Shown in pieces: positions 1 to 22,765 of a stretch of DNA of 22,765 nt; within the stretch, counting starts at the first letter, position 1; each line of letters starts with the position of its first letter. Origin of the DNA: a virus; IMG/VR virus record IMGVR_UViG_3300032081_000319, positions 1 through 22,765 of that record; one strand, given 5' to 3'. Both the position numbers and the translations under genes were made by a program. Below the pieces are notes generated by a model. That model did not search any database. It saw only the letters and a list, made by a program, of their open reading frames with translations, and was not told the origin of the DNA.

Positions 1-1061
1 ACCAAGAAGAAATACTTGCTACTATCCTTGCTTCTGTAGGTGGAGGACAAGTTATTATTGAGAGCACCCCTAATGAAATGGGAGATAAGTTCCACGAACT
101 TGTTATGGAAACGATAGAGACCAATGGTGAGAATGGTTGGCACTTATGTTTCTTTCCTTGGGACGTTCACGAAGACTACTACATTGAGCCTCAACCTACC
201 TTTAGAATAAGAGACACAGAGAACATTCTATTAGAAGAGAACGGTTGGTCTGTAGGTCAGATAGCTTGGAGAAGAAAGCAGATAGCAACCTTAGGTAAGG
301 AAAAGTTCTACAGAGAGTATCCCGCAAGTGTAGCTGAAGCATTTAGGTTTACAGGAAAGAACTATTTTTCTGGTGTTGCCTTGGATAGAATAAAACCTAT
401 CAAAGACACAACGAATAAGTATTCTGCTATTGGAGAACCTGTGTCTGGACTTGACTATGTTATCTCTGCTGATGTTGGTGCTGGCTTAGGGCAAGACTAT
501 TCTGTTGCCTGTGTTATGTCTGCTGCTACAAGACAGCCTGTTGCTTGGTGGTGGTGTAATGAAACCTCCCCTGCTAAGTTTGCTGAGAAACTATTTGACT
601 TGGGTTGTCTATGGAATATGGCTGAGCTTATTGTTGAGAGCAATAACACAGGACAGGTTGTTCTTTACAAACTAAAAGAAATGGGCTACACTCGTTGGCT
701 ATGGACCAATGATAAAGGCAAGCCATTCCTTACTACAAAGAGAACCAGACCTTTACTCTTTGAGGGACTTAGAGAAACATTAGACGACGGGTTATTGTTA
801 TCTTTACCTATGTCTGTCTTGGAAGAACTACGTTCTATTATCTATGTAAATAAGAAACCACAGCACCCACGTTCAGGTCACGACGATAAAGTTATGGCCT
901 TAGCTCTTGCTTGCTATGCTGTAAAGGAGTATCCCATAAAGGTCGTTCATAACCACAAAGAACATTTCTTTAACCAACTGAAAAGAAAGCGAAGAGCAAA
1001 AGAAGCAAATAGGAAGATACCTTGGAACATTAGGTCTGGGGATAAAAAAGGTTCTTATTAG
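1..1061 (+). CDS. terL: Terminase large subunit, 5' end missing
   Basis: This is the motor of DNA packaging: an ATPase plus nuclease that docks on the portal, pumps DNA into the prohead and cuts it. The frame is open from base 3, so the ATG at 78 is internal and the gene begins before the window. Directly before that ATG the frame reads IIESTPNEMGDKFHEL, the typical motif following the Walker B region. Numbering from the ATG at 78, YPASVAEAFRFTG (81-93) is the usual linker motif. The RNase-H-like nuclease carries its acidic residues in SADVGAGLGQD (D132), ELIVESNN (E187) and SGHDDKVMALA (D269/D270). The tail is basic (about 290-310). The Walker A part is outside the window. The portal gene follows after 49 bases. 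Family identity is secure from the motifs; which terminase subgroup it belongs to is not. Confidence 0.95.
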   Translation, partial: QEEILATILASVGGGQVIIESTPNEMGDKFHELVMETIETNGENGWHLCFFPWDVHEDYYIEPQPTFRIRDTENILLEENGWSVGQIAWRRKQIATLGKEKFYREYPASVAEAFRFTGKNYFSGVALDRIKPIKDTTNKYSAIGEPVSGLDYVISADVGAGLGQDYSVACVMSAATRQPVAWWWCNETSPAKFAEKLFDLGCLWNMAELIVESNNTGQVVLYKLKEMGYTRWLWTNDKGKPFLTTKRTRPLLFEGLRETLDDGLLLSLPMSVLEELRSIIYVNKKPQHPRSGHDDKVMALALACYAVKEYPIKVVHNHKEHFFNQLKRKRRAKEANRKIPWNIRSGDKKGSY

Positions 1062-1077
1062 AGCATAACTCAAACTC

Positions 1078-1103
1078 ATTACTATTTATTATCACATTAG
1101 GAG
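1078..1103 (+). promoter_or_regulatory. Terminase-portal spacer with a repeated AT-rich word
   Basis: The 49-base gap before the portal holds CTATTTATT followed by TTATCACATTA (1089-1099) and the ribosome binding site AGGAG (1099-1103), 7 bases before the ATG. CTATTTATT recurs at 4738-4746, just after the scaffold stop, and TTATCACATTA recurs at 4850-4860, just before the capsid ribosome binding site. A shared regulatory element such as a promoter or RNA processing site is possible, but no clear sigma-70 -35/-10 pair is visible. Confidence 0.25.
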
Positions 1104-1110
1104 CACATAA

Positions 1111-2730
1111 ATGAAAGCACAAGACATAGCAGAACTCTATCACCAACACAAAGAATATTGGGATAGACAAAGACCGGAACTGGAAAGATACAAGTCTGCT
1201 TACGAAACAAAGTTCTGGCAGAACCAATACTACGGTATGAACGATAACCAAATGATAAACGTCCAAACAAGTGATGCTTATGGTTACATAGAAAGTTTCA
1301 TTGCTTCCCTCTTTGCAAAGAACCCTGCGGTTATTGTAAAGCGTGGACTTCGCAATAGAGGAGACAAGGATAAGGCACAAGCTGTTGCTAACGACTTCTT
1401 GTTGCGTGCTCGTAATGAGATAGAGAACGTAGCACGAATGGCTCTTATCTATCCTATGGCTTTCTTTAAGCTTGTCCCTGACGACAACCAAGAAGAGCTT
1501 TACGATAAGGTCTATCCTGTTGCTGTTGCTCCTTGGCAAGTTATCATTGATAGAGAAAGTCCTCGTTGGGATAAGTCTCGTTATGTGGCGCATTGCTACT
1601 ACCTTCCCTTAAGTGAAGCACGAGAGAAGTTTGGTAATAAAACTTTTAACCCAACAAGCAAAGACGAATACTTTAACGCTGACCCACAAGACGAACCTGA
1701 TGGTTATGGTGAAGACAAAGAGTATGTTGAGATAGTTGAGTTCTATGACTTGGTGAATGACGAACTTATCTTTTACTGTCCTCAGCACGGTCAAGGTAAT
1801 AACATTTTAGAAAGAACAAAGTTCATTCCATTCCGTAATGTAAACAATAAACCTTCTGTGCCTATCATTCCTCTTTACTTTAATAAGATACCTGACTGTC
1901 CTCTTGATGGTTATTCAGCTATGCGTCGTGTTTACGACCAACTCTACGAGATAAACATTATCCGTAGCTTCCAAGCTAACTCTGTCCGTAAGGCTTCTCG
2001 TCAGTATCTTGTAAAGGCAGGACTATTAGACGAAGAGGATATGGCTAAACTAACAGCAGGCATTGACGGACTATTCATTGAGGTTGATGATGAAGACTTA
2101 GCTGGTGCTATCCGTGCGGTTCCACAAAACCCTACACCACCTGAGTTGGAAGCTTACTACAATATGGTCCAGAACGATAAAGACAAAGGCTCATTGCTTG
2201 CTCCCTTTACTCGTGGTGAAGCACTTAAAGCAACAGCCAGTGAGATAGTTGCCTTGGCTTCCTACTCTGCTACAGAGCTTGGACGAATGGCTCGTGAAAG
2301 AGACGGAGCAATAGAAGTGTTAGCTCACACCTACCTGAATATGGTCTCAACCTTTATTGATAATGATAACATTATTTATTTACAGAACTCACTACAGAAT
2401 GTAAGTGAAGATGACCTGAAGGGAGACTTTGATATCTTCGCACAAGACCAAGCCTCAACACCTATCAGCGAGCAGGTAAAGCAAAACCAACTGCTTATGA
2501 ATATTCCTACACTCGTTCAGTTAGGAGTTCAGCCTGATAAGATATTAGAACAAGTTGTTCGTAGTCTTGGCTTACCAGAAGACTTCTTAGAGAAGGCACC
2601 AGTGCCCCAACAAGAGCCGCAAAATGTTTCACGGGGCATTGAGCCACAGGTTGGAACAACAGAGCAGGCTATCCAAGCAGGAGCACCTAAGAACATAAGA
2701 CCGTTCTTACCAACTGAGGGGATAGGATAA
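1111..2730 (+). CDS. Portal protein
   Basis: At 539 residues this has the usual size of a podovirus portal, the dodecameric ring at one capsid vertex through which DNA enters and leaves and on which the terminase and tail dock. It follows terminase directly and precedes the scaffold and capsid genes, the standard order. Features consistent with the family are an N-terminal helical part with the conserved-looking stretch DAYGYIESFIASLFAKNPAV (about 50-69), a central mixed region, and a long helical part around 270-300 (YSAMRRVYDQLYEINIIRSF). Next come an acidic IEVDDEDLAGAIR segment (about 323-335) and ATASEIVALASYSATELGRM (about 375-394). The C-terminus is Gln/Pro-rich. The start is supported by AGGAG 7 bases upstream. 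The stop shares its last base with the next ATG. The call rests on position, length and overall character rather than one catalytic motif. Confidence 0.88.
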   Translation: MKAQDIAELYHQHKEYWDRQRPELERYKSAYETKFWQNQYYGMNDNQMINVQTSDAYGYIESFIASLFAKNPAVIVKRGLRNRGDKDKAQAVANDFLLRARNEIENVARMALIYPMAFFKLVPDDNQEELYDKVYPVAVAPWQVIIDRESPRWDKSRYVAHCYYLPLSEAREKFGNKTFNPTSKDEYFNADPQDEPDGYGEDKEYVEIVEFYDLVNDELIFYCPQHGQGNNILERTKFIPFRNVNNKPSVPIIPLYFNKIPDCPLDGYSAMRRVYDQLYEINIIRSFQANSVRKASRQYLVKAGLLDEEDMAKLTAGIDGLFIEVDDEDLAGAIRAVPQNPTPPELEAYYNMVQNDKDKGSLLAPFTRGEALKATASEIVALASYSATELGRMARERDGAIEVLAHTYLNMVSTFIDNDNIIYLQNSLQNVSEDDLKGDFDIFAQDQASTPISEQVKQNQLLMNIPTLVQLGVQPDKILEQVVRSLGLPEDFLEKAPVPQQEPQNVSRGIEPQVGTTEQAIQAGAPKNIRPFLPTEGIG

Positions 2731-3269
2731 TGGGTTTCTTTAAAATGAAATGTGGAGACTGTGATGAAACCTTTGAGGTTTTCCAACGCTGGGTTATTGA
2801 CAAAGAAACCAGAGAGACAGTCCATAACTTTGAGTTAGACGATATCTATTGCGGACACGAAGAATGTTTCTATGAAGACTACAAAAGAGTAGACGATAAG
2901 TTTATTGGCTGTGGTTCTAATAACACCTTCCGTGTTTTACAAGGTGGTTCATTCTCTATCTCTTCCAAAGGACTGAACGGAGACCACCAAGGTTTCTACT
3001 CACCAGACTTAGGAAAACACTTTAACAACCAGTTTGAGGCGTGTGAGTATGCCGAAGCAAATGGTTTTAAACGCTTGTCGCAAGTAAACATTGATGACGT
3101 TATGCAACGACGAGTAGACTTAGACGCACAAGACAGCGCTGACCTCAAGGCTATTCAGTCTATGGAAGCTGCCGGTGTAGATAAAGCAGAAGCCTATGGT
3201 AAGGTCTTCTCAACAAAAGAACTCAAGAAACGAGGACTATTAGACAACAGCATTAAAGGAGACGAGTAA
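2730..3269 (+). CDS. Zinc-ribbon protein of the head-gene cluster
   Basis: This is a 179-residue protein of unknown role. The first 61 residues hold cysteines spaced as a zinc ribbon: C8-x2-C11, C41-x4-C46 with His43 between them, and C61. The next segment (about 68-113) contains RVLQGGSFSI and GFYSPDLGKHF, a pattern I associate with FmdB-like zinc-ribbon proteins found in phage head-gene clusters. The C-terminal 60 residues are charged and helical. Its ATG overlaps the portal stop by one base (TAATG), and its own stop overlaps the next ATG in the same way, implying translational coupling. Because it sits between portal and scaffold, a role in head assembly is a reasonable inference, but a regulatory or host-directed function cannot be excluded. 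Confidence 0.65.
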   Translation: MGFFKMKCGDCDETFEVFQRWVIDKETRETVHNFELDDIYCGHEECFYEDYKRVDDKFIGCGSNNTFRVLQGGSFSISSKGLNGDHQGFYSPDLGKHFNNQFEACEYAEANGFKRLSQVNIDDVMQRRVDLDAQDSADLKAIQSMEAAGVDKAEAYGKVFSTKELKKRGLLDNSIKGDE

Positions 3270-3811
3270 TGGCTATTAGAGAAAACAAACAAATGGAAAT
3301 GGATGTCTTAGAAGTAGACACCACTCCACCAACAGACGAAAGTGTGTTACAAGAAAAGGTAGAGCAAGAAGAGCAAGCCTTTGATAAAATGGTAGAAGCT
3401 GTTTCACCGGAAGGTGAGTATAGCGAGGGAGCCATAGAAACTATCACTACAAGCATTAACGATGTCTTGTCTTTATTCGGTCCTATGGCCGAGCCTATTG
3501 TTGCGGGAGAGAGTGAAGGCTTTCTACCAGCTTCTATTACGGCGGCTATCTCTATGATAAGTCTTGCCGCACAGGATGCTGGAATGGAAGAGTTTGCTAT
3601 TGACCCAACAACCCTAACAAACGACAGAGCCTTGATAGAGGCTGCGGGCAAACTAAATGCCTTAGCGTCAAACCAAAACTTTGGAATGTTTCTAAAAACC
3701 TCACCGCAAAGTGTAGGCATAGAAGTAGCACAAGCAGAACCTGCTATGGCTTCTCCAGCAATGGGACAAGAAGAAGTTGATGTTGACGCACTGTTCGCTT
3801 CCAGAATGTAA
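3269..3811 (+). CDS. Acidic hypothetical protein between portal and scaffold
   Basis: This 180-residue acidic, mostly helical protein is not one I recognise. It opens with a Glu-rich stretch (about 20-45, QEKVEQEEQAFDKMVEAV) likely to form a helix. A more hydrophobic helical core follows (about 60-140, with INDVLSLFGPMAEPIVAG and ITAAISMISLAAQDAGM), then a flexible Ala/Glu tail ending in VDVDALFASRM. Start and stop are set by a TAATG overlap upstream and by AGGAG at its stop serving the scaffold gene 11 bases on. Such proteins next to scaffolds are often head-assembly accessory factors, and a short C-terminal peptide could be a docking motif. Both points are inference. Confidence 0.6.
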   Translation: MAIRENKQMEMDVLEVDTTPPTDESVLQEKVEQEEQAFDKMVEAVSPEGEYSEGAIETITTSINDVLSLFGPMAEPIVAGESEGFLPASITAAISMISLAAQDAGMEEFAIDPTTLTNDRALIEAAGKLNALASNQNFGMFLKTSPQSVGIEVAQAEPAMASPAMGQEEVDVDALFASRM

Positions 3812-3822
3812 GGAGATACTAA

Positions 3823-4737
3823 ATGGAAAACCAAACAACAGCGACTGGTCCCGCTACAACAGAGACCAATACCAAAGTTGCAGGAGTAAACGTACATGAC
3901 ACCCAAAGCCACCGCACCCACGCTTACGACGCCTTGGCGGCAGCCAAAGCCGACATTGCCCGTGGAAAAGCCGAAGCCGAAAGCGCCCAAGCAGCCCAAA
4001 CAACCGAAGGCTCCCAAGCCGAAGCAACCGGACAAACCGACACGTCGTCCGTTAGTTCCTCGCTTTTGGAAGCTAATGTTGAGAGTGAACTTCTCAACTC
4101 TTCTCACAAAGGAGTTAACTGGAATGACACTGTTGCGGGACTACCCGAAGACGCTCAAAAGCTGATAGGCAACTTGCGTGCTGACTACACAAAGAAGACA
4201 CAAGAGTTGGCGGCACAACGTAAAGCATTAGAGAGTGAGCGTCAAGCTTTACTTAACAGCGACTTTACAAAGACTTTGGATGAAACCTTAGCAAAAGACA
4301 CAGGGGAGTTTGACCCGTTCTCTAACGAGAGCGTCCAGAACCGAATAGAGCAAGAAGTAGCTATGCGAATGAAAGCAATGTTAGAACCATTACAGACTGA
4401 GTATGAGCTACAACAAAGACAAATGTCTTTACAAAACTTTAAAGACCAACACCCAGACCTTACAACTTACAAGACAGACATTGCTAAGTTGTTGATAGAA
4501 GATAACTCTCTATCGTTGGAGCGAGCCTACTACATTGTAAAGGGCAAAGCAAAGACCGAGGAAGCCAGTAGAGCAAGTGAAGAACTTGCTTCTTACAAGC
4601 AGGCTGCTCGTGAGTATGGACTGAAAGTTGGTGGTGGCCGTCAGGTTACTATGCAGAAACGCATTCCCGAAAATGTAAAAGCTAAAGGCGCCTATGCTGT
4701 TTATCAGTGGGTCGCCGCACAAAAGGCAAATAAATAA
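3823..4737 (+). CDS. Capsid scaffold protein
   Basis: Scaffolds template prohead assembly and leave before DNA fills the shell. This 304-residue protein lies immediately upstream of the major capsid gene. It has the expected make-up: a low-complexity Ala/Gln/Glu/Thr-rich N-terminal third (about 1-85), then VNWNDTVAGLPEDAQKLIGN (about 99-118) leading into a long charged helix with ADYTKKTQELAAQRKALESE. A second helical part (about 180-280) follows, and the C-terminus is basic (GRQVTMQKRIPENVKAKGAY). AGGAG at 3811-3815 gives a 7-base spacing to the ATG. About 3896-4060 the codon use changes sharply to GCC, ACC and TCC, unlike the flanking GCT/GCA-rich code. No protease motif was seen. Confidence 0.82.
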   Translation: MENQTTATGPATTETNTKVAGVNVHDTQSHRTHAYDALAAAKADIARGKAEAESAQAAQTTEGSQAEATGQTDTSSVSSSLLEANVESELLNSSHKGVNWNDTVAGLPEDAQKLIGNLRADYTKKTQELAAQRKALESERQALLNSDFTKTLDETLAKDTGEFDPFSNESVQNRIEQEVAMRMKAMLEPLQTEYELQQRQMSLQNFKDQHPDLTTYKTDIAKLLIEDNSLSLERAYYIVKGKAKTEEASRASEELASYKQAAREYGLKVGGGRQVTMQKRIPENVKAKGAYAVYQWVAAQKANK

Positions 4738-4878
4738 CTATTTATTTACAACAATAGCCCCCCTCCTTCTGGTTGAGTTGGGATAAGGCTTTTTTGGACC
4801 TCAGCAATGAGATAACCTCTAAGACCGAAAAAACAAATACAAGCCGTATTTATCACATTAACTAAAGGAGAAAAAATA
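4738..4878 (+). promoter_or_regulatory. Untranslated leader upstream of the major capsid gene
   Basis: This is the longest gene-free stretch in the window (141 bases). It contains CTATTTATT (4738-4746, also seen before the portal), a C-rich run, a possible weak terminator (4756-4795), a 4-bp hairpin CTCA-GCAA-TGAG with a GNRA-type loop (4800-4811), TTATCACATTA (4850-4860, also before the portal) and the strong ribosome binding site AAGGAG (4865-4870), 8 bases before the capsid ATG. Capsid genes are usually the most expressed, so a dedicated promoter or a stabilising or processing site here is plausible. No convincing sigma-70 promoter was found. Confidence 0.35.
4756..4795 (+). terminator. 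Weak candidate terminator before capsid gene
   Basis: AGCC (4756-4759) can pair with GGCT (4787-4790), and the following CCC with GGG, across an asymmetric internal loop. A run of six T (4790-4795) comes directly after the stem. The stem is imperfect, so this is a tentative call. Confidence 0.3.
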
Positions 4879-5904
4879 ATGGCTATTTCTAATGATATTC
4901 TCTCCTCAACACTTCGCATTCTAAAGGACCAAGAGGTAGACAACCTCTACAAAGCGGTTCCACTTTTAGATAACATTCGTGCGATGGGTGGTGTTGAGGA
5001 GTATGACGGAGGTCAAAAGGTCAATGTACCAATGATACTCGCAGAACACTCTACTATTACCCAACTTTCTACCGGTTATGAGCCTGTCTCATTGTCGGCT
5101 GCTGATGCCTTGCGTCAAGCAGAGTTTAACTGGTGCGACTATGTTGCTCCTATTATTATCACCAAGAAGGAAGAACTTTCTAACAAAGGTGAGCGTGCTA
5201 TTATCTCTATCGCAGAAGCACGAATGAAGTCTGTTATGGGCCTCATTAAGCGTGAGACTGAAAAGCAGATACTTCGTGGCGACAGTTCTATCTTGAGTGA
5301 GTTGCTTACTCTTAACGGACACTCTGCCGGTATCGGTTCCGCTACTGGTTTCTTGGAAGATGCTGCTTTTGGAGCACAGACAAATGTTGTCGGTGGTCTT
5401 TCTAAAGCTGCTTTCTCTAACGACCTACAGAACCAACGAGTAAATGGTTTGGACTTAACAGCAGGTAACGAAAACATTGTTGAGAAGTTGACTGACCTTT
5501 ACATTGAGGCTCAAATGCGAACACCAGACGGTTCAGCACCTAACCTTATTATGTGCTCTCCTGCTCTTTACCGTGCTTACAAAGCTCAACTCTTTAACCA
5601 AGAACGTTTCATTGACGAGCAAGTGCTTGACGGTGGAAAGCTTGCTTTGAGTTTTAACGGTGCTAAGATGTATGCTACACCATTTATGGATAGCACTCTT
5701 GCTGGTGCTGCTAACGACATTAACGCTTATGTTCTTAACACTAAGTTTATGAAGTTGATGTTTGACCGCGACGCTAACTTTGAGATGAGTGACTTTATTG
5801 ACGCTACTGGTTATGCTTCTCGCTACGCTTACTTAACAGTTCGCGCACAGATGGCGTTCTCACACTTGGCTTCACAAGGACTTGCTTCAGGAGGAAACAA
5901 CTAA
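4879..5904 (+). CDS. Major capsid protein
   Basis: This 341-residue protein follows the scaffold and has the length and character of an HK97-fold phage coat protein, which builds the icosahedral shell. The N-terminal part has a helix with SNDILSSTLRILKDQEVDNL and a strand region with DGGQKVNVPMILAEHSTI. The middle carries a long spine-helix-like stretch, about residues 100-135 (KEELSNKGERAIISIAEARM and on). Later segments APNLIMCSPALYRAYKAQ (about 216-233), FNGAKMYATPFMD and a C-terminal SRYAYLTVRAQMAFSHLAS fit the peripheral and axial domains. AAGGAG lies 8 bases upstream, the strongest ribosome binding site in the window, after a 141-base leader. The stop shares a base with the next start. 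There is no visible pro-domain or fused decoration domain. Fold assignment is by context and pattern, not alignment. Confidence 0.87.
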   Translation: MAISNDILSSTLRILKDQEVDNLYKAVPLLDNIRAMGGVEEYDGGQKVNVPMILAEHSTITQLSTGYEPVSLSAADALRQAEFNWCDYVAPIIITKKEELSNKGERAIISIAEARMKSVMGLIKRETEKQILRGDSSILSELLTLNGHSAGIGSATGFLEDAAFGAQTNVVGGLSKAAFSNDLQNQRVNGLDLTAGNENIVEKLTDLYIEAQMRTPDGSAPNLIMCSPALYRAYKAQLFNQERFIDEQVLDGGKLALSFNGAKMYATPFMDSTLAGAANDINAYVLNTKFMKLMFDRDANFEMSDFIDATGYASRYAYLTVRAQMAFSHLASQGLASGGNN

Positions 5905-6455
5905 TGAGTACAACTTCATACATTAACCGCATTTTTGGACGAGATGAAAGCGGAGTAAACGAGGCCACTGTAACAGCCTCGGCTCGTCGTAAAGTAGAAA
6001 CATTCGTAGCTGGTGCTGCTATTGCTGTGGGCGACTTTGTTGCTCTCAACTTTGCTGAAACCCACGACGGAGAAAAAGGGCTTGTAGTCAAGAAAGCAGA
6101 CATTGCTGACACAGACATTATCTGTGTTGTTGGTGTTGCTATTGAGGCTGCTACCACTGATGAGACTTCCTCTGATGGTGGAACTACCAACGACCGAACT
6201 AAACTTATTAAAGTTGTAGTTGCTGGTTTGGTAGACCAAGCTAATGTAAGCGGCTCTACAGCCAAAGGTGACCGACTTGTAGTTGGTGGAACCGCTGGCC
6301 GTGCTGACGTTGCTACCTCTTTCCGAACCGACCTCGGTGATGGAACAGGAGTAACAACTGGCACTGTAGCTCAACAGCAACAGATAGTAGCTATCGCTTG
6401 TGAAGCGGACGCTGCTAACAAAGCTCTTGTTTACGTTTTTCCACAGACACCATAA
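5904..6455 (+). CDS. Probable head decoration or cement protein
   Basis: This 183-residue, Ala/Gly/Thr/Val-rich protein is predicted to be mostly beta. It starts on the last base of the capsid stop (TAATG), with AGGAGG at 5889-5894 nine bases upstream, so it should be made in large amounts alongside the capsid protein. Segments such as FVAGAAIAVGDFVALNFAET and TKLIKVVVAGLVDQANVSG alternate glycine turns with strands. These resemble small beta-barrel decoration proteins (DUF2190-like) that bind the outside of HK97-type shells. The gene is followed by two hairpins, which suggests that a capsid-decoration transcript ends here. A minor capsid or tail-tube role is the alternative. Confidence 0.6.
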   Translation: MSTTSYINRIFGRDESGVNEATVTASARRKVETFVAGAAIAVGDFVALNFAETHDGEKGLVVKKADIADTDIICVVGVAIEAATTDETSSDGGTTNDRTKLIKVVVAGLVDQANVSGSTAKGDRLVVGGTAGRADVATSFRTDLGDGTGVTTGTVAQQQQIVAIACEADAANKALVYVFPQTP

Positions 6456-6467
6456 TAGTTTCTATTT

Positions 6468-6482
6468 GCCTATTTTTTAGGC
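6468..6482 (+). terminator. Small hairpin with T-rich loop
   Basis: GCCTA (6468-6472) and TAGGC (6478-6482) form a perfect 5-bp stem around a loop of five T. It lies 13 bases after the decoration gene stop and 7 bases before a stronger hairpin. It may aid termination or protect the 3' end of the capsid transcript. Confidence 0.4.
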
Positions 6483-6489
6483 TCTAAAT

Positions 6490-6513
6490 GAGGGGGGGCA
6501 CCTGTCCCCCCTC
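6490..6513 (+). terminator. Strong GC hairpin after the capsid-decoration pair
   Basis: GAGGGGGG (6490-6497) pairs perfectly with CCCCCCTC (6506-6513) around an 8-base loop, giving an 8-bp GC-rich stem. The downstream side is only mildly T-rich (TGTTTCATT), so termination may be partial, letting some transcript run into the tail genes. The next ribosome binding site begins 15 bases later. Confidence 0.6.
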
Positions 6514-6538
6514 TGTTTCATTACAACGGAGAATAACA

Positions 6539-7927: not shown

Positions 7928-7929
7928 GA

Positions 7930-10170
7930 ATGAAGACACAAGGCAAAATGCTGGTAATGCCTTTGAGCGGCATAAACCAAAAGATACCACAAGACACAAA
8001 CTCTGCTACACAACTAATAAACTTTTCTACTGACGAACAAACAGATGGTTGGGACAACCGAATAGGTTATGAACCCTATGCTATCAATGTGTTAGGACAG
8101 AACACTTGGGGTCCTTATCGTAACAGTGAAAAAATAACTTCTTGTTTCTATTGGCCTACACACGGTGGAGCTAAAAGTTTTATGCTTTATGAAAGCAACC
8201 AGATAGGTTTCTTCACACAGGACACAAACCAAATAAGATACATTGTCGGTAATGACGGTGGTACAACACCAGTATCCTTTGAGAGCATAGACACACAAAG
8301 AACAAGACCAGCACAGAACCAACTGGGTTCTTACTTTGAGCCATTCGGTAAAGAACTGGTTATCATAAATGGAACAGATAGACCTATTGTTTTTAACGGA
8401 GAAAGAGTTAGAACTTTAGGTTTCGCAACTGCTCCTAACCCACCAGTAGTGTGGCAACCATTATCAGGCTCAACAGAGTTTAACAAGAACGCTGGTGATG
8501 TAGCTTACAACCCTATTGAGGCTTCACCTACAGGCTCAGCTTTCTTAGAACCAGCCTCAGTTAAGTATAACCTTTACTATGGTCTCGGCACAAGAACAGA
8601 CCTGAAAGATAACCAGTATCGCTACAAGGTTTCCTACATTATGGATAACGGTAGTGAGAGCCCCATAAGCAGCCGTAGTGCCCCAGCACGGTGGGTAGCA
8701 GACGACACAGGGTTACGACAAGGGCTATGGATAGAAAACATTCCTACGGGCCCTGACGGCGTTGTAGCAAGGCGTCTTTACAGAACACGAAACCTTGGTG
8801 ATAACCCAACGAATGTAGGAACAGACACCTCTGCTGAGGACGAAGTTTATTTCTTTCTTGACGAGATAAAAGACAATGAGTGTACGCACTACTTTGATAT
8901 CCGTCCTGATAGCGCATTAGGCTTCCTTGCTCCAAGAGACGACCACTCTGTTTTATTTCCAGCAGGCAAAGGTAATGTAGCAGCTACATTTAAGAACTGT
9001 TTATTTATGAATGGTGGAGAGGGAGATGGCTACACACTTTATTATTCTAAGCCACTGAAACCAGACCAGTTCGGTGCTCTTGACTTCTTCCAAGCAGGAA
9101 ACCAAAACAGTGGAGACATTGTAGGACTGAAAGGTTATTACAATAGTTTGCTTGTGTTTAGAGAACGAGGCATAGACATTGTTATTGGTAACCCATTAGA
9201 AGGCTTTCAGTATGTCCCTTACATAAAAGGCATTGGCTGTTCTTCTCGCTTTGGAATAGTAGAAGTCCCTGAACTTGGAATAATGTTTTTAAGTGAAGAC
9301 GGCATTTATCTATTACAAGGTGGACTTGATGGTGGTGCTAAACTCACTGTAAAGAAAATGACTAACAAACTACCAGACTTGTTTAGCCGACTGAATAAAA
9401 CTCTGCTACCAAAAGCTGTAGCTGGTTACAGTAGCAAACGTAAAGAAGTTCACTTTTACTTTACAATAGACGGAGCTAATGATAACAATATAGGACTTGT
9501 TTATCATTTAGATAGACAAGGCTTCTCACAGAGAGAAGGTTTTCCTGTGAGTTGTTTGACTAATGACTTGGACGGCAACCTTATCTTCGGCCACCAAAAC
9601 GGCTACACTTCGTTTAACAACGACACGGTTCAGGAAGCTGGACTTTATTTTATTTCAGGCTGTGGAGATATGGGAACAGCTTACCAAGGGTCAGGAGACT
9701 TAGGCGTTATCAAACGAGCAGACGGTGGTAGAACAAGCCGCTACCAGTCAGCCACTCACGACTTTGGTTATGGACCACAGAAAAAGTTTATCAAGTATGT
9801 TTATCTTTATGTGAGAGCAATGGCTTCACAAGGCTACAAGATAAAGTATTACCTTGATAGAAACACAGACACACCTTATGTGATAGACAGTAAAGACTTG
9901 TTCTTCCAACGACCAGAGCAGACAGCACAAGCAGTCTATGGTGGTGGTTCATTTGTAGGTGGAGGAACCTTTGATACTTCCAACTGGGAACACACAGACC
10001 TTATCCAAGTTCGTTTCCCTGTAGCACAGAAGGCTTGTTCTTACTTTTCATTTGAGTTGGAGACCACAGGCACAGACACCTATTCAGGTAACATAGTTCT
10101 CGTTGGCTACTCATTAGAGTTTAACACGAACAACACTAAAACACGGAGCGGAAGAACCAATGCCCTTTAA
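7930..10170 (+). CDS. Tail nozzle / stabilisation-type protein
   Basis: This 746-residue, strongly beta-rich protein carries many repeated short strands, aromatic residues and glycine turns, as in the beta-propeller of podovirus tail nozzle proteins (T7 gp12 or P22 gp10 class) that close the tail and hold the DNA. It starts MKTQGKMLVMPLSGINQKIP and contains the hallmark-like central block LLVFRERGIDIVIGNPLEGF followed by GIVEVPELGIMFLSEDGIYL (about 406-460). Further on is YSSKRKEVHFYFTIDGANDN, typical of propeller blades. GAGG stands 8 bases before the ATG, and the start is 2 bases after the previous stop. The end overlaps the next gene by 11 bases. Assignment rests on length, order and composition; no enzymatic motif was seen. 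Confidence 0.68.
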   Translation: MKTQGKMLVMPLSGINQKIPQDTNSATQLINFSTDEQTDGWDNRIGYEPYAINVLGQNTWGPYRNSEKITSCFYWPTHGGAKSFMLYESNQIGFFTQDTNQIRYIVGNDGGTTPVSFESIDTQRTRPAQNQLGSYFEPFGKELVIINGTDRPIVFNGERVRTLGFATAPNPPVVWQPLSGSTEFNKNAGDVAYNPIEASPTGSAFLEPASVKYNLYYGLGTRTDLKDNQYRYKVSYIMDNGSESPISSRSAPARWVADDTGLRQGLWIENIPTGPDGVVARRLYRTRNLGDNPTNVGTDTSAEDEVYFFLDEIKDNECTHYFDIRPDSALGFLAPRDDHSVLFPAGKGNVAATFKNCLFMNGGEGDGYTLYYSKPLKPDQFGALDFFQAGNQNSGDIVGLKGYYNSLLVFRERGIDIVIGNPLEGFQYVPYIKGIGCSSRFGIVEVPELGIMFLSEDGIYLLQGGLDGGAKLTVKKMTNKLPDLFSRLNKTLLPKAVAGYSSKRKEVHFYFTIDGANDNNIGLVYHLDRQGFSQREGFPVSCLTNDLDGNLIFGHQNGYTSFNNDTVQEAGLYFISGCGDMGTAYQGSGDLGVIKRADGGRTSRYQSATHDFGYGPQKKFIKYVYLYVRAMASQGYKIKYYLDRNTDTPYVIDSKDLFFQRPEQTAQAVYGGGSFVGGGTFDTSNWEHTDLIQVRFPVAQKACSYFSFELETTGTDTYSGNIVLVGYSLEFNTNNTKTRSGRTNAL

Positions 10171-11743: not shown

Positions 11744-11752
11744 GAGACACTT

Positions 11753-12478: not shown

Positions 12479-12489
12479 GAGAAATAACA

Positions 12490-15793: not shown

Positions 15794-15796
15794 GCA

Positions 15797-18700
15797 ATGG
15801 CTGAACCAACACCACAAGTTATCATAGATAATGCTATGGAGAGTGAGTGGAACTACGCCACAGAACTCAACGACCAAAGTTATCTACAACTATTATTACA
15901 ACAAGCACAACAAATGGAAGCGGGCACTCTATCACCAGAGGGTGTAGAACGAGCAAGAGACCCCTTCTCAGCCACTCCAGAGTTGCTCCAGTCTGTTGAC
16001 CCTACCGCCACGCCAGAAGCCCTTCAGGCAGCAGAGACGGCCGCCTTTCCTACAGGTAGAACAGGCAAGCCTACACCAGCAGAAGCAGACACACCAGCAG
16101 GCATAGAAGAAGCAGCAATAGAAGCAGGAACTTTCTTTTCTCCTGAGTATCGCATTCAGCAAAGAATGTTAGAGCAAGGTCTTGTTGACGCTGAAGTAAA
16201 TGCTTTCCGTAGTTTGTTCCAAGCTTACCAAGCAGAGGGTGATAGTCCTACTGTTGCTATGAGAAAAGCAAGACAGGAAATATCTATTATCACTGGTGCT
16301 TACTACACACCGTCAGGACAAATGACCCCTGCTGAACCAACAACAAAGGGTGAGTTCCCTTTCCCAACACAACCAGAAGAACGAGGTGCGTTTGAGAAGC
16401 AGCTTGTTGAGAGCCCCTCGCAAGTAGAAGCAAGAAGCAAAGCACGTAAGGCAGGTGAAGAAGAGTATCAAAGACTGAAGGGAAGTTTTAACTTGGAAGC
16501 CTACGACATTGTGTTTGACGAGAACGACCAACGCAGACCTGTTGAGGAAATAGAACGACGACAAAGAGAAGCAAGACTACCGGTCAATGCTAACATAGAC
16601 TTTGACACAATGAGCCAGCAGTTAGAAGATAGGTTTAAAGCTGAAGACCTCGGTGTTGTAGTGAAGCAAGCATTGGACTATCAACTAAAAGCACAGGGCA
16701 AACCTATTCCAAAGAGGGGAGAGCCAGACTACGGCGACTACACTCGCGCACAGGTAGCTATGTCGGACCATTTCATAGCACAGGTTTTCCAAGAAGAAAT
16801 GGGACAGACCATTGACCCACGCAAAGCTACACTCACAGACAGGTTTGTAAAGGACTTGTTTACTGAAAAGAAAGCAGACGGTTCAGTCCAAGAGAGCAGC
16901 ACAGCAGCAGGGTTACGAATAGCTGGTGGTCTTATCCGTCCAGTCTCAAACCTTATCATAGGTGGAATGACCTATGAGGTAGACGAAGAAGGTAATGTTG
17001 TTGACGAAGACGACATAAACTACAAGCTGTCTGAAACAGTTGCTGAGTTAGTTGACGACGATAGCGTACTTGGTTACATAGGTTATCTTACACCAGCCCA
17101 ACCAATAGTTAGAAAGGAAGGAGCAAGAGAGAGCGGTTATGTTTCTCACGATACATTCTTAGACGCAACACTACACGACATCAAGGTTGGTAGGTTTCTT
17201 GGAGACGACTTTGTTTCTATGCCTTTCCTTGCAGAAGGTTTAGGAGAATATCTTAACACAGACGGTGAAGCAGCAGCTATGTCGTTAGGTCTTATCACAG
17301 AGATAGGCTTACCACTCACACCAGCAGGTGCTGTGGGGATGTCGGTCAAAGGTGTAGGAATGGGAACCGGTGCCATTGGTAAAGCTACCAAGGTTGTTAC
17401 TCGTGGTAAGAAAGGACAGAAGCTCTCAGAGACAGGAGCCTCAATAGATAAAGCAGGAGAGGCACTTCTTCCTGAAAACTTATTACAGACCTCAACAAAC
17501 TACTACCGCTTTAAGCAGTTGGAACGAGCCAAAAGTGAAACAGGAATGCAAGGAACTTTATCTATCAGTGAAGGCGCTGCTCCACGAATGGCCCGAGACT
17601 TTGACTACTCCGTTACTGACGACGCAGGAAAGTTCTCAAAAGAAAAGTATGATAAACTAAAAGCAACAACACCAGACGGAGAGCGTGCTATCAGTGAAGC
17701 AGCAAGCATTCACCAAGAGATAGACGACCTCGCAAGAAACATTGATAACATAAGTGATGAAGAACTGAGTGCTTTCTTAGCACGCAATGAAACAGGAGCA
17801 AAGGTCCAACAGCCACAAGGTGTAGGCACAGCTTCCTTTGAGGCTATTAGTGTTGATGACTTTCGTGCCTTGTTGAGTGAGCCGCAGGCTGGAGTGCCTG
17901 CTCTTAAGACTTCATTCACTTATGAAACATTCCAAACATTCTTGGCTAACAAAGTTCCTAAAGAGTTTATCTTTGTAACACCAACTATGGTTGCTAAGAC
18001 CTCAGCCTACAGACAAGTCTATCAAGACGTACAACAACAGATGACTAACCTCTTCAGTAAGTTTAAGAAGGTAGACGGCGGTGTTCGTTTCACTGGAAGT
18101 GTGGATGAAATGGCCGCAATGGAAGAAGTAGTAAGACTACGAGGCTTAAACATTGACCCAGAGTTTGTTCTTACACCGGTCCAAGTAGGTAAGCTGAATG
18201 ATGTAATGAAAGAAGTTGCGATAGAACAAACACTACTCGCAAGAGGTGAGGGTGGTAAGATAGGATATGTTAGCGACCAAGCTTATGCTAAACTAAACAT
18301 TCCAGAAGCAAGAAGATATCAAGGCACCATTACAAGCCAAGCATTATCTCCCATTGCTCTCTCAGGAATGACCGGTCTTGCTGTCGCTGGACCAGCCGGA
18401 GCATTGGTTGGTTTAGCTGCTGTGCCTATGGTAAAACTATTATCAAACATTCCAGTTGCTGGTAAGGCTGCGAAGGTAGTTGACAACATTATCACAGGGG
18501 TCTCAAAGTATGCGATAGACGCAGCAGAAGCAGGCCAGAACGCCACGCGGACAGTTGGGGGTAGGGTAGGTAGCTATTTCTTTGGGAAGCCCAAAATAAC
18601 CGAAACTATGCCGATAGAAATGAAAAGACTTTTGGAAGGTGTGAAGGGTGAAGTGAGAGCTATCCCAAGAAACTTGGTTATGGAAATGAGTGAAGAGATA

Positions 18701-21700
18701 AAGAACGGGGTTGACCCTGTTGTTGTCTTTGAGAGCAAGTTAGCACAAGCCATTACAGATAACCCACGCTATGATATTGTTATCGCAGGACAGAAGTTAG
18801 CTGACCCCATTCAGGGAGATGACTTGTTTAGCATTGACTTTATCCGTGGTTTCTTTGGAGACGACATAAAGTTTTTGACTGACGAAGAGATACTACGCTT
18901 TGGTTTCGGTGGCTCGGTAACTATTACTGACGCACCATTAGCAACTATGCGTTCAGGCATTGGTAAGTTGCGGTCAAGGTTTACACAGTTAGAGAACCGT
19001 GGCTTTGGTGGTAAGTTTATGGGAGATGACTTTGCTTCTTACTCTACATTATTTATTTTAGAAAGCAGAGCTAAGGCTGTGCTTGATAGCAGACTAACCA
19101 ACGCTTTACAAGAGGACGCATTCCTACAGCAGACTATGGCTACACGAAAGGTTGGTGTTGAGGCTACAGTAGAAGAGACACGAGCATTAGATGTAGAAGC
19201 ATTCGGTCGTGAGTTTGTGGGAGAGGTAGACCGGTCGGCTGCTATCGTAGCAAGAGTTAAAGCAGATATGAAAGCAGGAACAACAAACATTCTTGGACCT
19301 GACGGACAACCAATAGGACCAGCAGTAGCACCACAGCTTACTGTTGTAGAACAAGCACAGCTACAAGGTGTAGTCGGTAGGTTCCAAAGAGTTGTAGAAG
19401 GTAATGCTAACGCTATCACCAAAGGATACTTTAACGGAAAGAAAGAAGCTATGCTACAAGCAGGACTTGACGAAATGGTTGAGGCTGTTATTAGAGGAGA
19501 CGACTACTACACCATCATAAGAAACTATGAAGACAATGTTATTAGAACTCTTGTAAGCGACACACTTGTAAGTGATGTCAAAGCGTTGAGCGATAAACTG
19601 GCTGATGTTCCTTCTGTGAAGGAGGCACTCAAGCTATTGGGTGAAGACCAAAACGTTGACGGCATTATCCGTGGAGCATTGATAGACGCACTGAAGGTAG
19701 AGGACTTTTCTCTACAAGGTCAGGCATTCTTATCTGCTCTGGAAAGAAATGGAATGGTTGTCAACAAGACTACATTCGGTAAGGAAAGCGTCAAAGCATT
19801 ACAGCCTAACATAGTTGCTCTCGGCGACAGTGGCTACATTATGATAGGCAACAAAGGTGTACGCCAAGCCTATGATGACTTGGTGAATAGCTTCAGGACA
19901 GGCAACTATCAGCAAGCTATTGAGAGCCTCAACACAAGAAGCTTAACACTTGGAGACTATGCTGCTAACAGAGTAGGACAGTTTATCAATGGTGTGTCTC
20001 GGTCTATGAGAAATGGTTTGCTCGCAGGTAAATACATTTACAATGGTCGTTACTTGGGAATAAATAACATTAGTCAGCCATTCATTATGGCTACAACCAC
20101 ACCTAACTTTGTTGGTCGTGCGTTGCAAAGAACCTTGACTAACATAGCAACCTTAGGCATTGACCCTATTGCTTTGACAAACACACTCAAGAGAGCAGGG
20201 ACAGCATTGCCCGCTGGTGGTTTAGCAACTGGTGCTACCATTGGTGGTCTAATGTTTGGTGCTCCCATCGCTGGTGGTGTAGCAGGGGCAATAGCAGGGA
20301 CAGCATTGTTAGCCAAGGGAGACCTAACCGCTGTGGTCTCAAGAGCATTTGAGAACTTCTTGATGAAGAACCCAAGCACAAGAACACCGCTTGGAGTTTT
20401 CTATGGCGCAAACAAAATGGACGAGGTTTATTTTACTGACGCATTCGGTAAGCAATGGACTGGCTCTATGCTGAATGACGCTATCAAACGCAACGACATT
20501 TATCTTACTCAGGTTTCATATGAGTTTGGTGAAGACGCTATTGAGGACATTGTAAAGGCAGCAAGAGTTGGAGCACAAGGTAAGGGAGACTACACTTCTA
20601 TTGCTAAGGAAGCTTTGACTTATCTCTTACCAAACAAGAAAAGCTTTGCTAACATTTTAGCTGAGGAGACAGACCTTGCGTTTAGACAGCAGGTGTTTGT
20701 TGCCGGCTTGGGAATGGGACTACCAGAAGACCAAGCAGCAGCATTGGCGAGAGCCTCACTGTTTGACTACGGTGCTATCAACAATAAGTTGGAACGAGAG
20801 TATGCTCGTAAGTTCTTTTTATTCTATGCCTTTATGAGACAGTCAGGGTTGGAGACAACCAAAGCAATGCTATCTCCAAACAGAGCAGCTATCATTGGGA
20901 CACAAGCACGGTTCGCAAACAACCAAAAGAAGAAAGCTGAGTTAGACATTCTACTACAGAGTACACCTTTTGCTACACAAAGAAGAAAGCAACTTGCTTC
21001 GTCTTATGCCTATGTTACGAACGCTTATCAGCAACACTACTATGCTATGTACGGACCAGCATTCCCAATGGTTGAGAGTTATCTACAGCTACAGGATATG
21101 ATGGTGAATGTAGCGAAGCTTGATATTATCTCACCAGCATTAGCAACAGCCGCTGGTTCTTCTCCGCTTACACAACTTGCTTCACAAGAGCTTGTGGAAC
21201 TACGCAGTGGTAAGAGCGACATAGCACCACACGGTTATCTAAGAGATAGAGACCTCGTAGCTATGCAAGGACTGGGGCTGCTAACCAAAGACAACTTAGA
21301 CTTCTTTGACTTGGAGCCAGCAGAGCCACCAAGTAGAGCAAGCTTTACAGTTGCCGGTGATGTAGAAGGACTACCAGCAGAACCACAGTTATTCCCTGAA
21401 GGCTACAGACTTAGGTTCGGTAGCAAGGAAGGTCAAACAAGATACAGAATAATGAAAGGCATTGGCGCAGTAATGGCTATTGACCGTTCACTTATGGACT
21501 ACACCAGCAGTCAGGTGGTAGGCGATAGAGTTGTAAATGACGAGGACGTAAAGTATCGTCAGCTTAGTGATGGCTCTTATGAACTCTACTATCGTGGGTT
21601 GCAAACACCTATCAAAGTTCCTACTTACTTACAGATGGAACTTGACATTCTTAACAAACAACTTCGTGACCTACAAGGGGCAACGAAGGGAACCAAACAA

Positions 21701-21715
21701 CGGAGAAAAAAGTGA
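15797..21715 (+). CDS. Giant internal virion (ejection) protein
   Basis: At 1972 residues (about 215 kDa) this is by far the largest gene, covering a quarter of the window. AGGAG lies 8 bases before the ATG. The N-terminal 300 residues are acidic, Gln/Glu/Ala-rich. Three Gly/Ala-rich hydrophobic stretches could enter membranes: about 491-530 (LGLITEIGLPLTPAGAVGMS), about 846-900 (GMTGLAVAGPAGALVGLAAV) and about 1470-1510 (GGLATGATIGGLMFGAPIAG). The regions between are charged helices. The C-terminus is basic (TKGTKQRRKK). Giant proteins at this position in podoviruses, such as T7 gp16, sit inside the capsid and leave with the DNA to form a trans-envelope channel. I looked for lytic transglycosylase, peptidase and RNA polymerase motifs and saw none convincing. 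The last codons, AGA AAA AAG TGA, include the slippery heptamer A AAA AAG. Confidence 0.72.
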   Translation: MAEPTPQVIIDNAMESEWNYATELNDQSYLQLLLQQAQQMEAGTLSPEGVERARDPFSATPELLQSVDPTATPEALQAAETAAFPTGRTGKPTPAEADTPAGIEEAAIEAGTFFSPEYRIQQRMLEQGLVDAEVNAFRSLFQAYQAEGDSPTVAMRKARQEISIITGAYYTPSGQMTPAEPTTKGEFPFPTQPEERGAFEKQLVESPSQVEARSKARKAGEEEYQRLKGSFNLEAYDIVFDENDQRRPVEEIERRQREARLPVNANIDFDTMSQQLEDRFKAEDLGVVVKQALDYQLKAQGKPIPKRGEPDYGDYTRAQVAMSDHFIAQVFQEEMGQTIDPRKATLTDRFVKDLFTEKKADGSVQESSTAAGLRIAGGLIRPVSNLIIGGMTYEVDEEGNVVDEDDINYKLSETVAELVDDDSVLGYIGYLTPAQPIVRKEGARESGYVSHDTFLDATLHDIKVGRFLGDDFVSMPFLAEGLGEYLNTDGEAAAMSLGLITEIGLPLTPAGAVGMSVKGVGMGTGAIGKATKVVTRGKKGQKLSETGASIDKAGEALLPENLLQTSTNYYRFKQLERAKSETGMQGTLSISEGAAPRMARDFDYSVTDDAGKFSKEKYDKLKATTPDGERAISEAASIHQEIDDLARNIDNISDEELSAFLARNETGAKVQQPQGVGTASFEAISVDDFRALLSEPQAGVPALKTSFTYETFQTFLANKVPKEFIFVTPTMVAKTSAYRQVYQDVQQQMTNLFSKFKKVDGGVRFTGSVDEMAAMEEVVRLRGLNIDPEFVLTPVQVGKLNDVMKEVAIEQTLLARGEGGKIGYVSDQAYAKLNIPEARRYQGTITSQALSPIALSGMTGLAVAGPAGALVGLAAVPMVKLLSNIPVAGKAAKVVDNIITGVSKYAIDAAEAGQNATRTVGGRVGSYFFGKPKITETMPIEMKRLLEGVKGEVRAIPRNLVMEMSEEIKNGVDPVVVFESKLAQAITDNPRYDIVIAGQKLADPIQGDDLFSIDFIRGFFGDDIKFLTDEEILRFGFGGSVTITDAPLATMRSGIGKLRSRFTQLENRGFGGKFMGDDFASYSTLFILESRAKAVLDSRLTNALQEDAFLQQTMATRKVGVEATVEETRALDVEAFGREFVGEVDRSAAIVARVKADMKAGTTNILGPDGQPIGPAVAPQLTVVEQAQLQGVVGRFQRVVEGNANAITKGYFNGKKEAMLQAGLDEMVEAVIRGDDYYTIIRNYEDNVIRTLVSDTLVSDVKALSDKLADVPSVKEALKLLGEDQNVDGIIRGALIDALKVEDFSLQGQAFLSALERNGMVVNKTTFGKESVKALQPNIVALGDSGYIMIGNKGVRQAYDDLVNSFRTGNYQQAIESLNTRSLTLGDYAANRVGQFINGVSRSMRNGLLAGKYIYNGRYLGINNISQPFIMATTTPNFVGRALQRTLTNIATLGIDPIALTNTLKRAGTALPAGGLATGATIGGLMFGAPIAGGVAGAIAGTALLAKGDLTAVVSRAFENFLMKNPSTRTPLGVFYGANKMDEVYFTDAFGKQWTGSMLNDAIKRNDIYLTQVSYEFGEDAIEDIVKAARVGAQGKGDYTSIAKEALTYLLPNKKSFANILAEETDLAFRQQVFVAGLGMGLPEDQAAALARASLFDYGAINNKLEREYARKFFLFYAFMRQSGLETTKAMLSPNRAAIIGTQARFANNQKKKAELDILLQSTPFATQRRKQLASSYAYVTNAYQQHYYAMYGPAFPMVESYLQLQDMMVNVAKLDIISPALATAAGSSPLTQLASQELVELRSGKSDIAPHGYLRDRDLVAMQGLGLLTKDNLDFFDLEPAEPPSRASFTVAGDVEGLPAEPQLFPEGYRLRFGSKEGQTRYRIMKGIGAVMAIDRSLMDYTSSQVVGDRVVNDEDVKYRQLSDGSYELYYRGLQTPIKVPTYLQMELDILNKQLRDLQGATKGTKQRRKK

Positions 21716-21888
21716 AACAAAAAAATAGAAAAGTTTTAGTAGCAGTCGCACCAGCAATAATGAAACTGGCCCTTAAAGCCATTCGTTATGCGAAGGACGG
21801 CTACACCCCTGAAGAGGCAAGAGACTTAGGTGAGAGCCTACTGACGCTTGCTATTACGTTCATTACATTAGCACAAGAGGAGAACTAA
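21712..21888 (+). CDS. 58-residue amphipathic hypothetical protein (GTG start)
   Basis: The ORF starts with GTG in a GTGA overlap with the stop of the giant protein. GGAG (21702-21705) is 6 bases upstream. The protein begins MKQKNRKVLVAVAPAIMKLA and continues with a charged turn (IRYAKDGYTPEEARDLGES) and a second hydrophobic stretch (LLTLAITFITLAQEEN). Two short hydrophobic helices around a charged loop would allow a small membrane-associated protein, but the stretches are short and no holin family is recognised. The frame is also -1 relative to the giant protein and joined to it by A AAA AAG, so it could alternatively be a frameshift extension of that protein. Confidence 0.6.
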   Translation: MKQKNRKVLVAVAPAIMKLALKAIRYAKDGYTPEEARDLGESLLTLAITFITLAQEEN

Positions 21889-21889
21889 C

Positions 21890-22030
21890 ATGCCAAAAGT
21901 AAATGGAAAAAAATATGCTTACACTACCAAGGGTAAAGCAGCGGCCAAGAAAGCTATGGACGCAAAGAAGAAAGCAGCTAAGGCTAAAAAAGCTAAAGCT
22001 TCTAAGAAAAAAAAAAGTAAGAGGATGTAG
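21890..22030 (+). CDS. 46-residue lysine-rich basic protein
   Basis: The ATG begins one base after the previous stop, with GAGGAG (21877-21882) upstream. The sequence starts MPKVNGKKYAYTTKGKAAAK and ends in Lys/Ala runs (KKAMDAKKKAAKAKKAKASK, then KKKKSKRM). Over 40% of residues are lysine. The opening resembles short MPKVxGKxxxYTxxGKAAAKKA proteins that I recall from marine phages. A nucleic-acid-binding or DNA-condensing role is plausible but unproven. A run of ten A (22007-22016) lies within the lysine codons; a slip to the -1 frame there would meet TAA almost at once. Confidence 0.72.
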   Translation: MPKVNGKKYAYTTKGKAAAKKAMDAKKKAAKAKKAKASKKKKSKRM

Positions 22031-22032
22031 TT

Positions 22033-22251
22033 GTGGCAAGTAAAAATACACCTACAAATAAAAAGCTCTACGCATCAGTCAAGGCTGCGGCAAAGAAGAA
22101 GTTTAAAGTTTATCCTTCTGCTTATGCTAACGCTTGGCTTGTGCGCGAATACAAGAAGCGAGGTGGTGGTTACACTACCACTAAGTCAACGAAAGGGAGG
22201 AAAGCCAGTGCCCCAAAAAGCAGGAAAAAAAGCAAAAGCAAAAAAAGGTAG
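22033..22251 (+). CDS. 72-residue basic protein with YPSAYAN motif (GTG start)
   Basis: The GTG start lies 2 bases after the previous TAG, with GAGG 8 bases upstream. The first half is a compact domain, KLYASVKAAAKKKFKVYPSA followed by YANAWLVREYKKRGGGY (about 28-47). This pattern recurs in small basic proteins of marine viruses as I remember them. The tail is purely basic (KGRKASAPKSRKKSKSKKR). The final 44 bases overlap the next gene in another frame. The role is unknown; binding to packaged DNA or to nucleic acid in the infected cell is inferred from charge alone. Confidence 0.68.
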   Translation: MASKNTPTNKKLYASVKAAAKKKFKVYPSAYANAWLVREYKKRGGGYTTTKSTKGRKASAPKSRKKSKSKKR

Positions 22252-22492
22252 AGGTGGACTTGGCCGATGGTTCAGCGAAGAATGGGTTGATGTCAAGACT
22301 GGTAAACCTTGTGGTAGGTCTGGTAAAAATGATAAGAGAAAGTCTTACCCAGCCTGCCGGCCAAGCAAGCGAGTTAGTTCTAAGACACCGAAGACTACGA
22401 AGGAGATGTCTGCTGCCGAGAAACGAAAGTTTAAGAAAGCTAAGACCTCGTCAAAGAAGATACCGTATCAACACAAGAGGAAGAAGAAATGA
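22208..22492 (+). CDS. 94-residue basic protein, DUF5872-like (GTG start)
   Basis: GGGAGG (22195-22200) stands 7 bases before the GTG at 22208, an excellent ribosome binding site. This makes the 94-residue reading preferable to a longer one from the TTG at 22031. The N-terminus is lysine-rich (MPQKAGKKAKAKKGRGG). It is followed by GLGRWFSEEWVDVKTGKPCG (about 17-36) and YPACRPSKRVS with TPKTTKEM, the signature I associate with the DUF5872 family of small viral proteins. The two cysteines (GKPCGR and YPACRPS) may bind metal or form a bridge. The tail is basic (KKIPYQHKRKKK). The gene overlaps its upstream neighbour by 44 bases and its downstream neighbour by 4 bases (ATGA). Function of the family is unknown to me. 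Confidence 0.72.
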   Translation: MPQKAGKKAKAKKGRGGLGRWFSEEWVDVKTGKPCGRSGKNDKRKSYPACRPSKRVSSKTPKTTKEMSAAEKRKFKKAKTSSKKIPYQHKRKKK

Positions 22493-22765
22493 GTTTCGTA
22501 AGAAATAAACTTTACAGTAAAGAATACATTGGACTGTCTGTAGCATTTGACACCACCTATGGGACAAGTAAGAAGCAGGTGGTGAACTTGTTTCCTACCG
22601 CTGACTACACCTACGACCATAGTGTTGCTTGGTCTGGAAACATTCAGTTGATAAGAGTTATGGGAACCCTCACTGGTGGAGCAAGTGATAACATTACTCT
22701 CTGTGCTTACAAGAACCAAGACGGCACAAGGTTAGTCATTGAGCCTACTCAAGCCTCTCTTGTCC
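22489..22765 (+). CDS. Beta-rich virion-like protein, 3' end missing
   Basis: The ATG overlaps the previous stop (ATGA), with GAGG about 9 bases upstream. Ninety-two codons are visible and the frame is open at the window end. The sequence (MSFVRNKLYSKEYIGLSVAF, DYTYDHSVAWSGNIQLIRVM, GTLTGGASDNITLCAYKNQD) alternates hydrophobic and polar residues with glycine turns. It looks like the start of a beta-sandwich structural or fibre protein. It is not recognised, and the missing part could change the call. Confidence 0.6.
   Translation, partial: MSFVRNKLYSKEYIGLSVAFDTTYGTSKKQVVNLFPTADYTYDHSVAWSGNIQLIRVMGTLTGGASDNITLCAYKNQDGTRLVIEPTQASLV

Follow-up and report, generated by a model that had tools for sequence, protein, structure and literature searches.

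Absence of RATY and other restriction-type words from an uncultured podovirus-like phage, with erasure of sites under host restriction as the likely cause

Orthodox Type II restriction systems mostly recognise palindromic sites, and the CviJI enzyme of chloroviruses recognises the degenerate word RGCY. Non-temperate dsDNA phages are well known to eliminate Type II sites from their genomes (Rusinov et al. 2018, PMC6286503). Degenerate specificities with R and Y at their ends are known to exist because RCGY has been documented in ChlorV-1, where it is a 5mC motif found beside a putative endonuclease (PMC13196603). Phages may also be protected by modification: acquired methyltransferases are reported to protect lactococcal 936-type phages from restriction (PMC4190342). 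On the side of the hosts, Microcystis, Helicobacter and Neisseria carry many restriction systems per genome (PMC8262939).

The DNA analysed here, which we call the window, is a whole stretch of 22,765 bases that makes up the structural half of the genome of a tailed, podovirus-like, uncultured phage. It consists of a structural block on the plus strand, running from the terminase and portal through a probable scaffold and the capsid to tail-region proteins and a protein of 1972 amino acids (Table 1). The terminase frame exits the left end, being open from base 3, and its product is 62 to 72% identical to the full-length homologues of near relatives. Relatives were located with the major capsid protein and make up a family of more than 100 IMG/VR contigs, of which the near-complete members are about 30 to 33 kb long. 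Non-structural ORFs of ten relatives, 80 in all, were scanned. The matches listed include small proteins of the sigma-region-4 type, as well as a few methyltransferases; the Pfam and PHROG listings show no polymerase or primase and, as a check on lifestyle, the Pfam listing shows no integrase. One contig of 30,578 bases (G009; L087/L088) has both ends within a single tail gene, so that the genome probably closes on itself with a length of about 30.6 kb, circularly permuted and without polymerase genes. A search of INPHARED found no cultured relative for the portal or the 1972-residue protein, and the capsid matched at only 22 to 25%, to Mx8-like, Stenotrophomonas, Bradyrhizobium and Ruegeria phages. 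The early region of the window was sought via an early protein of the relative G001, and only G001-type contigs were returned. The sole genome match for the family was a 29 kb contig (L100), itself without ATAT and CTAG, that is binned in a Euryarchaeota MAG; no PF01555 genes were found in this MAG match. Euryarchaeota were set aside as the host, as the link is doubtful and the contig may be misbinned.

Table 1. Positions of features in the window and, where a contig is named, in relatives
Feature	Position	Strand	Basis or remark
Terminase large subunit, 3' part	78..1061	+	PHROG phrog_2, E 1.4e-10
Portal protein	1111..2730	+	PHROG phrog_1216, E 2.5e-13
Conserved structural-region gene	2730..3269	+	Kept in relatives
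Probable scaffold protein	3823..4737	+	Position just before the capsid gene; conserved in relatives
Major capsid protein	4879..5904	+	PHROG phrog_9953, E 3.4e-26; distant Mx8-type capsid matches
Tail-region or internal virion protein	7930..10170	+	PHROG phrog_8094, phrog_511
Giant virion-type protein, 1972 aa	15797..21715	+	Conserved within the family; matches nothing known
D..E-x-K ORF, candidate PD-(D/E)XK nuclease	L089:6292-6804	+	Homologues in L085, L087, L095
Methyltransferase-like gene of the GATC/AATT-regaining lineage	L083:11426-12898	+	
Methyltransferase-like gene of the GATC/AATT-regaining lineage	L083:3901-4764	-	
tRNA-Ala (TGC)	L116:4440-4514	+	Sole tRNA in the family loci scanned

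The initial annotation had claimed, from reading by eye, that the degenerate palindrome RATY (GATC, AATT and GATT/AATC) is absent from the whole window, and exact counting agrees: each of the four words occurs 0 times. The next base is always A or G after the 264 AAT and the 230 GAT trinucleotides, and the 138 ATC trinucleotides are preceded by T in 133 cases, by C in 5 and by no other base, just as had been described. The absence spans genes and spacers alike, there being no RATY in the 1,147 noncoding bases either. Base composition predicts 431 sites at the 44% GC of the window, close to the approximately 450 first estimated at about 43% GC. RATY is also the maximal word, as widening it to NATY gives 934 matches.

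The window is AT-skewed and gene-dense and has unusual codon pairs, so an artefact of composition, codon usage or assembly has to be weighed. Shuffling of synonymous codons in the window genes, which preserved each protein and the overall codon usage, nevertheless left 285 ± 11.5 RATY sites, with a minimum of 247 in 300 trials, and hence the absence exceeds what codon usage explains. Random choice of synonymous codons in the same genes gave an expectation of 341 sites, and first-order Markov simulations of the window gave 293, the lowest of 60 being 264. Moreover, our rule for calling a word absent (a count of no more than 4% of expectation, with an expectation of at least 12) called no motif absent in any of 60 first-order simulated windows, and independent contigs of other metagenomes agree with the window. 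The shuffles and simulations rule out chance, composition and codon usage as the cause, and the probability of an artefact of any of these kinds is negligible. RATY in the window is absent beyond composition and codon usage, as in site avoidance.

The initial annotation dealt only with RATY, which is one of several absent words. Unsupervised scans of k-mers and palindromic patterns found further words with counts of zero in the window, for each of which shuffling of the coding sequences gave means well above zero (CTAG 62, TCGA 64, GANTC 56, CCNGG 19, TGNNCA 69 and TTSAA 81). CATG and TATA are nearly absent, with counts of 3 and 8, and nine words in all are purged by the absence rule. A different picture is seen for GCGT (91 observed, 136 expected), ACGT (27/85) and GCGC (17/54), which are depleted yet present in the window and have counts of 0 in most members of the clade; this pattern looks as if avoidance of RCGY had recently been released.

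The scan was extended to 83 relatives with contigs of at least 7 kb, each combination of contig and word counting as one test. Four-base palindromes were absent in 254 of 1284 tests, five-base gapped palindromes in 62 of 1284 and six-base gapped palindromes in 28 of 1284, while non-palindromic 4-mers were absent in just 29 of 9960. Absent words in the family are mainly palindromic, as in site avoidance. As a control, 42 contigs of unrelated marine podoviruses were retrieved via the Syn5 terminase; these lacked four-base palindromes in 19 of 660 tests, all of them involving GC-only words, and non-palindromic 4-mers in 0 of 5040. With nothing comparable in the control contigs, a general trait of marine podoviruses was ruled out.

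The sets of purged words vary by lineage and change even between close relatives. On the capsid tree, the minimum number of changes is 10 for GATC, 4 for AATT and 3 for GATT. The sister group L005-L010 is devoid of 14 of the 16 four-base palindromes, as well as of GANTC, TGNCA, CTNNAG, RATY and RCGY, and 19 words are purged by the absence rule, with L009 being a variant that keeps some palindromes. Words have been replaced synonymously: across five genes aligned between the window and L002 (4,605 coding bases), none of the 25 GATC sites of L002 is kept in the window, with identical amino acids at 14 of the 25, and none of the 22 AGCT sites of the window is kept in L002, with identical amino acids at 16 of the 22. 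As far as these alignments can tell, the two phages differ in word choice and not in protein function.

Several other members of the family are worth recording. The hyper-purged sister group includes L005, L006, L007, L008, L010 and L229-L231. A distant second hyper-avoider, L234 (1-15314), lacks AATT, ACGT, AGCT, CCGG, CGCG, GCGC, GGCC, CCNGG and GGNCC and has nearly lost CATG; L235 (1-5336) shares most of this absent set, including CCGG. Among L011-L020 and L126, asymmetric 4-mers are wholly absent, with ACTC/GAGT missing in most, ACYC in L016 and L126, and AGTC and GACC in L017, L018 and L020.

It is highly probable that purging driven by restriction, in general terms, underlies these patterns. 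The best explanation is that many Type II restriction-modification systems of the hosts have exerted selection on the family repeatedly; such exposure fits because the absent words are palindromic or gapped-palindromic, the sets are lineage specific and removal is synonymous. These systems would have selected for phage DNA from which each recognition word had been erased, with separate host systems acting on CTAG, TCGA, GANTC, CCNGG, TGNNCA and TTSAA. By analogy with the RGCY and RCGY enzymes, the absence of RATY would most likely be due to a single Type II system of the host that recognises a degenerate R-AT-Y site. Sites may then come back once a lineage is no longer under this pressure or has gained a protecting methyltransferase. 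Overall, we consider it likely that the phage escapes host restriction by having no sites. Weighing against this explanation, the joint avoidance of about ten specificities would require the host population to carry unusually many systems. The earlier suggestion of a host restriction system of RATY specificity survives insofar as there is selection against a restriction-type specificity, but RATY is just one of many purged words.

To our knowledge, there is no restriction enzyme for RATY, GATT/AATC, GAGT/ACTC, GRGT/ACYC or RGTC/GACY. Our literature search found no paper that lists RATY among restriction or methylation motifs. At least one host enzyme seems to have a cutting specificity that has not previously been described.

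The initial annotation also took RATY to behave as one recognition specificity. We tallied the states of GATC, AATT and GATT, in that order and with 0 for absence, in 107 contigs of at least 5 kb: state 000 occurred in 8, 0++ in 37, +0+ in 14, ++0 in 2 and 00+ never. Wherever both palindromes are absent, GATT/AATC is absent too (8/8 contigs, of the window's clade). The comparison families behave differently, with state 00+ found in 12 contigs for RTAY, 5 for YATR, 6 for YGCR and 7 for YTAR, and state 000 never. These tallies incline us towards RATY being a single degenerate specificity. The analogous word RCGY resembles RATY in 14 contigs; the analogy is weakened by L234, which is in state 00+ (ACGT 0, GCGC 0, ACGC 140). 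All contigs with complete absence of RATY belong to one clade, which counts against our best explanation and means that the argument for a unit rests on few independent events.

The components of RATY are, moreover, split elsewhere, including within the clade by L002 and L003-type contigs. L002 has 32 GATC sites for 30 expected, no AATT and 8 GATT for 83 expected, while in L003 the palindromes are plentiful (GATC 133/78, AATT 139/130) and all 35 GATT sites are GGATT. GATT/AATC alone is missing from L113 and L114 (0/104 and 0/101), where GATC and AATT are normal. A methyltransferase of the phage could account for the splitting in L003. It is also possible, if rather unlikely, that GATC, AATT and an asymmetric GATT/AATC are each avoided separately, the window owing its pattern to a coincidence of three host specificities. 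Each component is indeed absent alone in some contigs (GATC in 37, AATT in 14, GATT/AATC in L113 and L114), L002 lacks AATT with GATC normal, and other asymmetric 4-mers (ACTC, ACCC, AGTC, GACC) are absent in the family; both the GATT-only avoidance in L113 and L114 and the sparing of palindromes in L003, which tell against a single unit, are compatible with a separate asymmetric specificity. Nevertheless, state 00+ was found in 0 of 107 contigs although avoidance of GATC only and of AATT only is common, the four other R/Y families always retain the asymmetric member when two palindromes are lacking, and the triple coincidence would be needed in both RATY-null branches, that of the window and that of L005-L010. 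One degenerate specificity is, on this evidence, the reading to which we lean.

Phage genes bear on whether the enzyme could be the phage's own. It had been proposed that a phage-encoded nuclease degrades host DNA at RATY while the phage keeps its own genome free of the site. In chloroviruses, the virion contains nucleases with sites as short as this (discussed in PMC13196603), and in several relatives of the window a small ORF is conserved whose D..E-x-K signature is reminiscent of PD-(D/E)XK nucleases, but the model of this ORF had a pLDDT of 56 and a fold search gave no significant match. A model of a 209-residue protein of G001 (pLDDT 38) was dropped. The proposal found no support in the matches listed for the 80 non-structural ORFs of ten relatives, which yielded methyltransferases and no restriction enzyme, either among the Pfam matches or among the 25 of 75 PADLOC families listed. 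About ten absent words in shifting sets would, furthermore, imply ten enzymes in a genome of 31-33 kb, and sites are regained, not lost, in the phages that bear methyltransferases. A phage-encoded nuclease is thus unlikely, on scans that covered the ORFs of relatives, the window being the structural half; in its RATY form, with the phage genome kept site-free, we regard it as very improbable.

The methyltransferases are of interest in their own right. L003 and L004 both encode an N6_N4 methyltransferase, inserted between the portal and the next gene; in G001/L083 this gene separates the portal from the homologue of the window gene at 2730..3269. The window has no insertion after the portal, and in L002 the spacing there is too short for a methyltransferase gene. 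The lineage in which GATC and AATT are restored also has a second gene, resembling adenine methyltransferases, which G001, L103, L104 and L125 all carry. In the L003/G001 lineage, GATC and AATT are back at or above expectation, with GATT still avoided except as GGATT. These observations would fit protection by a phage methyltransferase replacing avoidance, in one lineage only, and the surviving GGATT contexts are no more than suggestive as to the specificity of the L003 enzyme.

A further possibility is that the words, or at least the asymmetric ones, are read by a non-classical defence, such as a BREX-like, Dnd-like or Type III-like system or a nicking enzyme. GATT/AATC, GAGT/ACTC, GRGT/ACYC and RGTC/GACY are wholly absent in some lineages, and no orthodox enzyme is known to us for any of them. 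Most absent words are, however, palindromes, and elimination is rare (<0.5%) outside orthodox Type II systems (PMC6286503). We therefore think a non-classical defence a poor candidate, with a very small probability, and retain erasure under host Type II restriction as the preferred reading.

Site avoidance, where known, usually concerns one or a few words. The window is probably an extreme, many-specificity form of this strategy, with new recognition specificities behind it. The missing words would be a record of the specificities met by each lineage, and they point to RATY and asymmetric four-base specificities that are undescribed in the literature searched. More tentatively, and with some doubt on our part, the family may live by near-total erasure of the restriction vocabulary, in hosts that cover nearly every four-base palindrome as well as new specificities (RATY, GATT/AATC, GAGT/ACTC, GRGT/ACYC and RGTC/GACY). 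If this is true, the missing words of these phages could be read as a list of host enzymes yet to be discovered. The restriction-modification genes of the host, if it is found, should be predictable beforehand from the phage. The family also offers a natural experiment on the speed with which sites are lost and regained, and on erasing sites as opposed to carrying a methyltransferase.

Comparison with the systems described at the outset places the window among them. Restriction-rich hosts such as Microcystis, Helicobacter and Neisseria (PMC8262939) would create pressure of the kind proposed, although there is no evidence linking the window phage to these genera. As in the 936-type phages (PMC4190342), methyltransferase genes are carried by the L003/G001 lineage, in which GATC and AATT are again at or above expectation; here, protection by these enzymes is putative and the association is seen in one lineage only. 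CviJI, with its site RGCY, and the RCGY motif of ChlorV-1 share with the specificity proposed for RATY a four-base site with R and Y ends, but theirs are virus encoded, with viral DNA methylated, whereas the family of the window erases the sites and no enzyme for them was found. There is also a likeness to the phages of Rusinov et al. (PMC6286503), in which short, mainly palindromic Type II sites are likewise fully removed, beyond composition. The family differs from those phages in scale, with nine words purged at once in the window and 19 in L005-L010, and in kind, adding to the palindromes two degenerate words, RATY and RCGY, and asymmetric 4-mers.
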